A stretch of DNA of 64,000 bases from Rhodanobacter sp. (lineage in GTDB: Bacteria; Pseudomonadota; Gammaproteobacteria; Xanthomonadales; Rhodanobacteraceae). This document shows positions 325 through 4,330 of this stretch, in pieces; within the stretch, counting starts at the first letter, position 1, and each line of letters opens with the position of its first letter. The notes under the pieces are model-generated. The model saw nothing but the letters and a program-made list of their open reading frames with translations, was not told the origin of the DNA and ran no database searches. The DNA lies in contig JASBTI010000014.1 of the NCBI GenBank assembly GCA_030148505.1, positions 124,001-188,000 on the forward strand. Direction: 5' to 3'. The translations under genes were made by a program, and so were the position numbers.

Positions 325-987
325 TCAGTAGCTGGAAAGCAGCCGGCCACCCATCGCCGCATTCAGCGCGACCACCACCCCAACCGCCACCACATGCGTC
401 AGCAAGTCGGTAGCCGCCGCATCGTAAGCGTGACAGATCTCCAGCAAGCTGGCCGACGCTGAGGCGCTGGCCAATCCCACCATCACAGCTGTCAGCACCG
501 GACGCAGAGGGCAGGCACGCCGCAACAGCAAAATCATCAAGGCCGACAGCGGGATCGAAAAACTGATGATGAAGATCAGGCAGTCGCTTGCCTGATGCAG
601 GTTGGCGATACTGGTGTGCGGTGCGATCCAGTGCCGCAGACAACCCAGGCCACTGGCACCGATCCACAACAGCATGCCCGGCACGGGCACCCAGGCCCAG
701 CGTGCATGTCGCCCCGGTATGCCCAGCGCAAACGCCGCCCACGCCGCCGTGATCGCGGTGATCACCGCACCCAGCGCCGCCCACGCCAGATCCGGTGCGC
801 CCTCCCATCGATGCAACATGGGATGCACGCCATATAGCATCAGCAACACCACCGCGATCGCCGCCACCACCAGCAACCAGCCCAAGGTTCGCTGTCCCGG
901 AGACAGCAACCGTCGTACCGGCACCAGCTCAGTGCCGAGACGATCGATCAGGGTCTTATTGGAGGAGGTGGCAGACATGGTGGTCAA
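325..987 (-). CDS. nrsF: NrsF-family (DUF1109) anti-sigma factor, multi-TM
   Basis: About six hydrophobic helices, conserved Cys contexts (RRACPLRP, EICHAYDAA); overlaps the ECF sigma gene stop. Confidence 0.85.
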   Translation of the reverse strand: MTTMSATSSNKTLIDRLGTELVPVRRLLSPGQRTLGWLLVVAAIAVVLLMLYGVHPMLHRWEGAPDLAWAALGAVITAITAAWAAFALGIPGRHARWAWVPVPGMLLWIGASGLGCLRHWIAPHTSIANLHQASDCLIFIISFSIPLSALMILLLRRACPLRPVLTAVMVGLASASASASLLEICHAYDAAATDLLTHVVAVGVVVALNAAMGGRLLSSY

Positions 988-1571
988 GAGTCTCCATGGA
1001 AACGTCCGCGCAATGCCTTGATCGCACGGTGCAAATTCACTTTCAACGCGCCGCTCTTGCGGCCGGTGAGCTCCGCCACTTCACTCAGCGAACGCTCCCT
1101 CAACCCCAGCTGCTCGATCGCCTCACGCTGGCCTGGCGGCAGCTCCGCAATGGCCGCATGCAGTTGCCGCGCACGCTGCAGACTTTCCGTCGCAGCGCTG
1201 GCGTCATGCAGATCAGGATGGCTGTCCAGCGCAAAATCGTCATGAAGCTCGCGACGGACGCGGCGGCCATGGCCACGCAGCGCATCGATCGCGCGACGAC
1301 TGGCAATCGCCGTAACCCACGCGTCATACGACCGTCCCGGATCGAAAGTATGGCGCACGCGATGGATAGTGATCAGGGTTTCTTGCACGACGTCATCCAG
1401 ATGGTCATGGGCAACACCCTTGCGCCATGCCACCGCGCGAATCAGTGCTACTGACTCCGCCAGCAGTTTCTCATACGTCCGGCGGTCACCGGCCTGCGCA
1501 AGCGCCATCCACCTCGCCCGACGCTGATCGGGCGATTTGCTGGTATCGGCAGCGGTAGATTCGGCTGTCAT
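984..1571 (-). CDS. ECF RNA polymerase sigma factor, SigF-like
   Basis: Sigma-70 region 2 (HDHLDDVVQETLITIHRVRHTFDPGRSYDAWVTAIASRRAIDALR) and region 4 (LPPGQREAIEQLGLRERSLSEVAELTGRKSGALKVNLHRAIKALR); start chosen at MTAES. Confidence 0.9.
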   Translation of the reverse strand: MTAESTAADTSKSPDQRRARWMALAQAGDRRTYEKLLAESVALIRAVAWRKGVAHDHLDDVVQETLITIHRVRHTFDPGRSYDAWVTAIASRRAIDALRGHGRRVRRELHDDFALDSHPDLHDASAATESLQRARQLHAAIAELPPGQREAIEQLGLRERSLSEVAELTGRKSGALKVNLHRAIKALRGRFHGDS

Positions 1572-1681
1572 GGGATGAAGAGTACTCGGCCATGAGGGAA
1601 GGCGCCTATCAGCGCTCCTGAGCGTACCGGCGATCAATGCATGCGACATGGCCTCTCCAGTCCGGAAACGGCGATAGGCTC

Positions 1682-1707
1682 TTCGTTGCATCCTGTCCTG
1701 AAGTTAC
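1682..1707 (-). promoter_or_regulatory. Candidate SigF-type promoter for the sigma factor operon (GTAACT-N16-CGAA on minus strand)
   Basis: Plus strand reads TTCG(1682-1685)-N16-AGTTAC(1702-1707), upstream of the sigma gene start at 1571. Confidence 0.65.
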
Positions 1708-1767
1708 TTCGTGGCGCATGCTGGTGGGCTCGTGCCCCGCATTTTCTCCAGCACAGGGCCACGCGAC

Positions 1768-1793
1768 GTAACGGAAGACGACCGTCAGGCGAA
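1768..1793 (+). promoter_or_regulatory. Candidate SigF-type promoter for msrB (GTAACG-N16-CGAA)
   Basis: GTAACG 1768-1773, 16-nt spacer, CGAA 1790-1793; about 106 nt upstream of the msrB start. Confidence 0.65.
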
Positions 1794-1898
1794 TGACTCA
1801 TGAGACATCCTTCATGCGCCCGTGATGCACGCGCATCATCAGCGACTGGCGGATGGCACACTCTCCCGCAATCGGTGGTTCAGAACCCTGGAGGCCCC

Positions 1899-2525
1899 AT
1901 GTCACGCCTTGATCAAACCCTCGCAATGGACCGCCGCCGCTTTTTGCGCGCCGCGCTGGCTGGCAGCGGCTTGCTGGTCGTCGGTGCCGGACTGCTGGGA
2001 CCGCACCTTTTTGCCACGGCTCGCACGCCGACAAGCAGGCCCGGCAAGGTGCGGCTGGAGATCTTTGCCAGCGATGGCCGTGATCTTGGCACACGCGAGA
2101 TACCCAGGCTGGTGTTGACCGATGCACAGTGGCGTCAACGGCTGTCCCCCGCGGCGTTCGAGATCATGCGCCGGGCGGGAACTGAGCGGGCCTTCAGTGG
2201 CGATCATGAGAAACCGGCAGTGGGCGGCCTGTTCCGCTGTGTCGCCTGCCATACCGCGCTGTACGATGCCGCCACGGAATTCGATTCAGGGACCGGATGG
2301 CCAAGCTTCTGGCAGCCCATCGCTGCTCGCAACGTCATCGAGATCCCCGACAGCAGCTTCGGCATGCTACGGACAGCCATCAGCTGCGCCGGTTGCGACA
2401 GCCACCTCGGTCACGTCTTCGATGATGGCCCTCACCCGACCGGCCTTCGCTACTGCATGAATTCGGTCGCCTTGCGCTTCGTGCCGCTAAGCATGGCCCG
2501 CGCGAAAACTCCTGACACGGTATAG
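1899..2525 (+). CDS. msrB: Peptide-methionine (R)-S-oxide reductase with Tat signal
   Basis: Twin-arginine leader MDRRRFLRAALAGSGLLVVGAG; MsrB signatures CVACHTALY, FDSGTGWPSFWQPI, CAGCDSHLGHVFDDGP, RYCMNSVALRF. Confidence 0.93.
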   Translation: MSRLDQTLAMDRRRFLRAALAGSGLLVVGAGLLGPHLFATARTPTSRPGKVRLEIFASDGRDLGTREIPRLVLTDAQWRQRLSPAAFEIMRRAGTERAFSGDHEKPAVGGLFRCVACHTALYDAATEFDSGTGWPSFWQPIAARNVIEIPDSSFGMLRTAISCAGCDSHLGHVFDDGPHPTGLRYCMNSVALRFVPLSMARAKTPDTV

Positions 2526-2731: not shown

Positions 2732-4330
2732 TTGCCAAAACAGGAATCCGCAAGTATGTGGCGCAACGTTTTCTACCTGATTTCATTACTGGTCCTGGTC
2801 GCGGTCGGGCTGGCCGCCCCCAGCTTCCCCCACGTACTGTATGCGCTGATCGTGGTCGTTCCGCTGATCGCGCTCGGTACTTACGATATTGCCTCCAGCC
2901 ACAATGTGCTGTCGAACTACCCGGTAATCGGCCATCTTCGCTACATGATGGAATTCATCAGTCCGGAAATACGCCAGTATTTCCTGGAGGACGACAAGAG
3001 CGGGCGTCCGTTCAATCGCCAGCAACGGGATCTGATCAAGGCTCGCGGTCGCGGCGAGGCCGGCACTCACCCGTTCGGCACCGAATATGACATCGAGCAG
3101 CCTGGCTATGACTTCGCCTTGCATTCGGTCGCCGTCAAAGAGCTGCCGGAGAGCGCCGAACGCATCATGGTTGGCGGACCATTGTGCCGCCAGCCCTACC
3201 TCAGCTCCCGACTGAATATCTCGGCAATGAGCTTCGGCGCACTCAGCAGCCATGCGGTACTGGCAATGAACAAAGGTGCCGCGATGGGCGGCTTCGCCCA
3301 GGACACCGGCGAAGGCGGCCTCACCCCCTACCATCTCGAACACGGTGCCGACATCATCTGGGAAATTGGTTCGGGGTATTTCGGCTGCCGCACCAGGGAC
3401 GGGCGCTTCGATGACCAGGATTTTCGCACCAAAGCGGGCAACCCGCTGGTCAAGATGATCGAGATCAAGCTCTCGCAGGGAGCCAAGCCAGGACATGGTG
3501 GCATGCTGCCGGGCAAGAAGGTCACCGCCGAGATTGCCAGGATTCGCGAGGTACCTGAAGGCGAAGACTGCCTGTCACCGGCGGTGCACCGGGAGTTCGC
3601 CACACCATGCGGCTTGCTGGATTTCGTGGCACGATTGCGCCGGCTGTGCGACGGCAAGCCGGTCGGCTTCAAGCTGTGCATCGGCCGTCGCAGCGAGTTT
3701 CTCGGTATCTGCAAAGCCATGCTGAGCAGCGGTATCCTGCCGGATTTCATCACCGTGGACGGTGCCGAGGGTGGCACCGGCGCGGCACCGGTCGAGCTCT
3801 CCGACAAACTGGGATTGTGCATCGACGAGGCCGTGCCCTTCGTGCACAGCGCCCTGGTCGGCTGCGATTTGCGTCAATCGATCCGGGTGATTGCCAGCGG
3901 CAAGGTGGTCAATGGCTTCGATATGGTGCAAAAACTTGCCATCGGTGCCGACATATGCAACGTGGCGCGGCCGATGATGTTCGCGGTCGGCTGTATCCAG
4001 GCTTTGCGCTGTCACACCGACAATTGCCCCACCGGTGTGGCCACCCAGGATCCGCGACGTGCCCGTGCCTTGAAGATCGACGAGCGGGCCGGCCACGTGA
4101 AAAACTATCACCGTGCCACCCTCGACAGCTGCATGCAGATCACCGGTGCGCTGGGCGTCCTCACACCGGACCGGTTGACCCCGGCACACATCCTGCATCG
4201 CCTGCCCAATGAGCGGTCATGCTCCTATGCGCAGCTGTATTGCTATCTTGAGCCGGGTGAGCTTTTGCGCAAGGAAGTACCCGAGGCATTTGCCGATGAC
4301 TGGGCATTGGCGTGTGCCGAACACTTCTAA
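2732..4330 (+). CDS. FMN-binding glutamate synthase family protein (stand-alone GltB synthase-like domain)
   Basis: N-terminal TM segment, GltB-like core (ISAMSFGALS, GQDTGEGGLTPYH-like region, VDGAEGGTGAAP), Fe-S triad CIQALRCHTDNCPTG; start could be slightly downstream (MWRNVFYL). Confidence 0.9.
   Translation: MPKQESASMWRNVFYLISLLVLVAVGLAAPSFPHVLYALIVVVPLIALGTYDIASSHNVLSNYPVIGHLRYMMEFISPEIRQYFLEDDKSGRPFNRQQRDLIKARGRGEAGTHPFGTEYDIEQPGYDFALHSVAVKELPESAERIMVGGPLCRQPYLSSRLNISAMSFGALSSHAVLAMNKGAAMGGFAQDTGEGGLTPYHLEHGADIIWEIGSGYFGCRTRDGRFDDQDFRTKAGNPLVKMIEIKLSQGAKPGHGGMLPGKKVTAEIARIREVPEGEDCLSPAVHREFATPCGLLDFVARLRRLCDGKPVGFKLCIGRRSEFLGICKAMLSSGILPDFITVDGAEGGTGAAPVELSDKLGLCIDEAVPFVHSALVGCDLRQSIRVIASGKVVNGFDMVQKLAIGADICNVARPMMFAVGCIQALRCHTDNCPTGVATQDPRRARALKIDERAGHVKNYHRATLDSCMQITGALGVLTPDRLTPAHILHRLPNERSCSYAQLYCYLEPGELLRKEVPEAFADDWALACAEHF

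Follow-up and report, generated by a model that had tools for sequence, protein, structure and literature searches.

The stretch analysed here (the window) comprises 64,000 nucleotides of a Rhodanobacter sp. genome, within which genes for an ECF sigma factor and its putative membrane-bound anti-sigma factor lie divergently to a methionine-sulfoxide reductase gene. The following features were annotated, in window coordinates:

325..978, minus strand: nrsF, putative negative regulator of sigma F, a membrane anti-sigma factor with six predicted helices (PF06532, 71.6 bits, cutoff 26.8)
984..1649, minus strand: sigF, ECF sigma factor, 221 aa from ATG 1649 (Pfam Sigma70_r2, 42.7 bits; Sigma70_r4_2, 39.7 bits)
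1650..1658, minus strand: Shine-Dalgarno region of sigF (GGAGAGG), preceding ATG 1649 (from sequence)
1682..1707, minus strand: predicted SigF-type promoter of the sigF-nrsF operon (-35 GTAAC(T), N16, -10 CGAA; exact match)
1708..1767, no strand: segment of 60 bp separating the two -35 elements (13-14 bp in many family loci)
1768..1793, plus strand: predicted SigF-type promoter of msrB (-35 GTAAC(G), N16, -10 CGAA; exact match)
1890..1894, plus strand: GGAGG Shine-Dalgarno sequence of msrB (from sequence)
1899..2525, plus strand: msrB, methionine-(R)-sulfoxide reductase, predicted to be exported (SelR, 147.5 bits; TIGR00357 MsrB, 160.4 bits, cutoff 113)

The sigF product matched the domains of regions 2 and 4 only (PF04542 and PF08281). 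Its start is probably ATG 1649 rather than ATG 1571, which an earlier distance estimate implies, since the former is preceded by a good Shine-Dalgarno sequence (GGAGAGG) and the protein aligns with its relatives from residue 1. The nrsF start was placed at ATG 978, with an upstream TTG at 987 likewise open. MsrB combines a predicted Tat-like (twin-arginine-like) export signal, DRRRFLRA, with a SelR/MsrB domain containing the catalytic cysteine and the active-site motif RYCMNS. Downstream of msrB (2732-4330, plus strand) lies a gene for a membrane protein with an FMN-type glutamate-synthase domain, which also occurs in the locus of the closest relative seen (L042, see below).

Two motifs ascribed to the sigF/msrB gap in an earlier note on this DNA were recovered with exactly the same coordinates and spacers: GTAACT-TCAGGACAGGATGCAA-CGAA on the minus strand (1707-1682) and GTAACG-GAAGACGACCGTCAGG-CGAA on the plus strand (1768-1793), each with a 16-nt spacer. 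The note's description of them as facing was wrong, because the promoters point apart with their -35 elements innermost and are thus arranged back to back. Distances of about 106-111 nt to the start codons had been given for both; this stands for msrB (105 nt from CGAA to ATG 1899) and does not for sigF, as the choice of ATG 1649 places CGAA only 32 nt from the start codon, with a leader of probably ~26 nt. A weak terminator-like hairpin between both promoters (1724-1740, plus strand) is probably a chance occurrence.

Throughout the 64-kb window, these two were the only matches to GTAACN-N15-17-CGAA, compared with 0.49 expected from shuffled sequence. Across the whole genome (3.68 Mb), 13 N16 matches were counted versus 26 in a reversed control, rising to 53 versus 86 when spacers of N15-17 were allowed. 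The genome-wide enrichment put forward in the earlier note as a check is consequently absent as literally worded, per-gene enrichment being judged here from pattern matches alone, an outcome that is expected with a small regulon. Both the lack of enrichment and the mostly intragenic position of the other sites in the Rhodanobacter genome would fit an explanation of the pair as chance pattern matches in G+C-rich intergenic DNA. However, the probability of two N16 matches falling inside the 249-bp sigF/msrB gap, calculated from the genome-wide N16 density (13 real and 26 reversed-control matches), was 4e-7 to 1.5e-6, which argues against coincidence, and conservation across family loci led us to reject a chance origin, the likelihood of which we consider negligible.

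To assess conservation, sigF-nrsF loci were gathered from 148 family genomes (72 with a match) and from named genomes of Rhodanobacter and Dyella; counts are based on 76 distinct Rhodanobacter/Dyella-type loci, with motif presence scored by exact core matches. The sigF site was present in 76/76 loci, always with an N16 spacer, and the opposite, msrB-side site in 75/76 (71 with N16 and four with N15). The sixth base of the -35 element was mostly C, with G, T and A accounting for the remaining loci. Nine core bases are invariant by definition of the search, while spacer bases vary freely; since the search pattern fixed the core, the information lies not in core invariance but in the finding that nearly every locus has the sites, and has them at a consistent position. 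Retention of this position despite variable spacers excludes chance. Conservation in orthologous intergenic regions, also suggested as a check in the earlier note, was near-perfect. Judged by sequence comparison, the promoter pair is genuine, and the bacterial family has kept it almost without exception.

The consensus of ECF16 promoters is tGTAACc-N16-CGAA (PMC3420878), that of Caulobacter SigF is GTAACC-N16-CGAA (PMC3511200), as correctly stated in the earlier note (see also PMC3420878), and that in Brucella is (T/C)GTAAC-N17-CGAA, with two promoters mapped by 5'-RACE (PMC8315932). The autoregulation signature tGTAACc-N16-CGAA ahead of the sigma operon is represented in the window by the site at 1707-1682. 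Deviations from tGTAACc comprise the sixth -35 base, which is T at the sigF site and G at the msrB site, and the base preceding GTAAC, which is A instead of t at the sigF site. As the gene next to sigF encodes NrsF (PF06532), the locus is classified as an ECF16/SigF system akin to Caulobacter SigF, Bradyrhizobium EcfF and Brucella BcrS, with membership based on NrsF, domain make-up and promoter. Window SigF shares 47-54% identity with alphaproteobacterial sigma factors paired with NrsF. The identity of the adjacent gene, the consensus matches and the conserved orthologous gaps support the original reading in each of its parts, namely SigF-type promoters, an autoregulated sigma factor and an exported MsrB under its direct control. 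Taken as a whole, the two motifs are very likely promoters that depend on SigF and belong to an envelope oxidative-stress switch of the ECF16 (SigF/NrsF) type.

Among the 11 other sites in the window's genome, one lies upstream of an exported, lipoprotein-like MsrA (PF01625, 194.6 bits) and another precedes a cytochrome b561 gene followed by a molybdopterin oxidoreductase (PF00174; YedY/MsrP/sulfite-oxidase type). Sites inside genes (L005, L007-L010, L012 and L013) and those without a convincing target (L004 and L006) were treated as chance matches. The MsrA site was found in 30/30 loci of relatives with window-type NrsF in a first search; it was then present in 20/20 further genomes with window-type NrsF (50/50 pooled) and in 0/20 without it (Fisher's test between these two sets of 20, P = 1.5e-11). 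In one of the negatives, G139, the contig ended at 131 bp and truncated the region. A different, canonical NrsF is carried by several of the genomes negative for the MsrA site. For b561, the site was present in 13/16 genomes with window-type NrsF versus 1/14 without (P = 6e-5); counter to strict co-occurrence, 3/16 NrsF-bearing genomes have b561 without the site. The converse exception is G119, where a SigF-type site precedes b561 (L211), yet no NrsF was found in that genome.

Two genomes of the same genus, G068 and G137, displayed additional SigF-type sites. In both, such a promoter precedes a gene for a secreted Met-rich MXKDX-type peptide (L268, L293), which recalls the hypochlorite-scavenging peptide reported for Azospira and Brucella. 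Shared sites also lie before an operon of a catalase-family protein and cytochrome b561 (L267, L282) and before an exported peroxiredoxin (L270, L283), and G137 carries one before a cytosolic msrB-msrA pair (L277). A search of the window's genome for orthologues of the Met-rich peptide and of the catalase-family (catalase-peroxidase) protein found neither. From the predicted sites we conclude that SigF probably governs a small regulon of methionine-sulfoxide repair and oxidant scavenging, mainly extracytoplasmic.

It could be argued that the promoters are real but that msrB, msrA and the b561 operon are mainly under another regulator or a housekeeping promoter, with SigF playing a minor part. 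In Brucella, a PbcrS-lacZ fusion without BcrS still gave activity well above the empty vector (PMC8315932), induction of Caulobacter CC2748 was only partly SigF-dependent (PMC3511200), and the msrB leader in the window is long (~100 nt), so that a further promoter or regulation is possible. Nevertheless, a search of 1500-2000 returned no sigma-70 promoter-like site, and absence of the msrA promoter motif from 20/20 genomes without window-type NrsF indicates that the site tracks the sigma factor; we regard a subordinate role for SigF as unlikely. Equally, the sites might be recognised by another ECF sigma factor of the same specificity, cross-activation between ECF paralogues being known for EcfF/EcfS in Bradyrhizobium (PMC3420878), or by a DNA-binding protein with a GTAAC operator. 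Such an arrangement is highly improbable given that a single NrsF is encoded in the window's genome, that sites follow NrsF presence across genomes, and that the two half-elements keep a fixed 16-bp spacing, as is usual for ECF promoters.

Comparison of gene order around the predicted SigF promoters revealed a further difference between the window and most of its relatives. In 44/51 long family loci (including a few same-strain duplicates), a gene for a 576-aa CcdA/DsbD-thioredoxin fusion adjoins the rightward promoter, with msrB behind it; an example is L015:3155-4882 (minus strand), with CcdA/DsbD-TM, thioredoxin and Thioredoxin_10 domains. This fusion gene is absent from the window's genome altogether, placing msrB directly behind the promoter, and inspection of 1794-1898 by eye recognised no remnants of it. 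Relocation elsewhere in the genome was considered and rejected, as the matches were weak (32%), one of them beside a DsbD-type 752-aa frame. Loci L042, L106, L107, L109, L111 and L055 likewise lack the fusion gene, with msrB immediately after the promoter in each. On this comparison, several lineages have lost the gene, and in every case msrB has come to lie right behind the promoter. Its product is a plausible electron donor for exported MsrB, a role also proposed for the separate pair bll1026-1027 in Bradyrhizobium (PMC3420878); in the window's genome, the retained DsbD-like gene (752-aa frame) might act as a substitute donor.

In L042 (L042:5001-5535), both sigF and nrsF contain internal deletions, and the -35 element of the msrB promoter has changed from GTAAC to GTCAC, with the -10 element intact and the distance to msrB unchanged (106 nt). 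This pattern would be expected if selection had relaxed once the sigma factor was lost, and L042 possibly represents a decaying SigF circuit; as it is a single metagenome-assembled genome, the deletions could also be assembly errors.

Alignment of NrsF proteins revealed two highly conserved cysteines, C136 (98/98 proteins) and C116 (97/98). Compared with the canonical type, which is carried by another genus of the same family (L259-L266), C136 aligns to the C131/C129 position, while the canonical periplasmic C181/C179 position is occupied by residues other than cysteine in the window-type alignment. A nearby cysteine, C185, was present in 69/80 family proteins and 1/18 of others. An AlphaFold model of NrsF consists of six long membrane-type helices (pLDDT 87), with C116 and C136 flanking one loop, close to the ends at which helices 3 and 4 face each other. 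Assuming a topology with the N-terminus inside, this loop would be periplasmic, and we hypothesise that C116 and C136 form a redox pair. It is possible, and we advance this only tentatively, that NrsF is a rewired redox sensor in which the cysteines flank a single periplasmic loop, instead of C131/C181 in two separate periplasmic loops, so that a disulfide formed upon oxidation could free SigF; in parallel, the CcdA-thioredoxin donor would have been lost in several lineages, that of the window among them, and msrB moved directly behind the promoter.

What was observed directly, namely the promoter motifs and how they are conserved, which genes they adjoin, and how the sites co-occur with SigF/NrsF, can be accommodated in the following scheme. 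The membrane anti-sigma factor NrsF would hold SigF until oxidation of the envelope inactivates it, the inducing signal being, by analogy, hypochlorite, peroxide or heavy metals. Freed SigF would bind GTAAC-N16-CGAA and transcribe its own operon leftward, in positive feedback, and msrB rightward, while at two other sites it would drive exported MsrA and the cytochrome b561/molybdopterin-oxidoreductase pair (MsrP/YedY-like). As an expected outcome, methionine oxidised outside the cytoplasm would be repaired in a coordinated manner.

For Bradyrhizobium EcfF (PMC3420878) and Brucella BcrS (PMC8315932), experiments have established the same promoter consensus together with autoregulation and control of Msr genes. 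With autoregulation and Msr control thus known for the ECF16 group, the predicted promoter pair adds a new and well-supported case to a type of oxidative-damage response that is already known. In the literature searched, no paper linking NrsF to Rhodanobacter was found, and the analysis provides a regulon with strong computational support, comprising exported MsrB and MsrA and b561/molybdopterin oxidoreductase, for a group of soil and groundwater gammaproteobacteria. Genomes with and without NrsF, a relative whose sigma locus and promoter are possibly decaying, and an unusual pair of putative sensor cysteines also offer a natural comparison, through which oxidant sensing by NrsF can be tested directly.

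Several characterised systems resemble the one described here to varying extents. Haemophilus influenzae RpoE2/HrsE and Neisseria Ecf with msrAB likewise place an ECF sigma factor over periplasmic MsrAB (PMC7907618); the Haemophilus anti-sigma factor HrsE is, however, a small cytoplasmic protein of 67 aa, and the likeness is a functional analogy only. An ECF16 sigma factor divergent from a periplasmic methionine-sulfoxide repair operon is found in Brucella melitensis (BcrS/AbcS with bcrXQP; PMC8315932) and, reportedly, in Azospira suillum (SigF/NrsF with MrpX/YedY). The Brucella targets are a Met-rich peptide, MsrQ and MsrP, whereas the divergent gene in the window encodes MsrB and its genome yielded no Met-rich peptide. 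Bradyrhizobium japonicum EcfF/OsrA (ECF16) shares the autoregulated operon and co-regulates peptide methionine-sulfoxide reductase genes together with the DsbD-core/thioredoxin pair bll1026-1027 (PMC3420878). Its spacer motif is N14-15, in contrast to N16 in the window, and its DsbD-like and thioredoxin proteins are separate, while they are fused beside msrB in the window's family and missing in the window's genome. Caulobacter crescentus SigF/NrsF (ECF16) has in common the operon of sigma factor and NrsF, autoregulation, GTAACC-N16-CGAA promoters and, among its targets, the YedY-type molybdopterin enzyme CC2748 (PMC3511200). In contrast to the window's genome, where both MsrB and MsrA carry such promoters, the Caulobacter msrA homologues are not SigF-dependent and the main SigF targets are DUF692/DUF2063 operons, and its NrsF uses C131/C181 where the window-type protein has invariant C116/C136.
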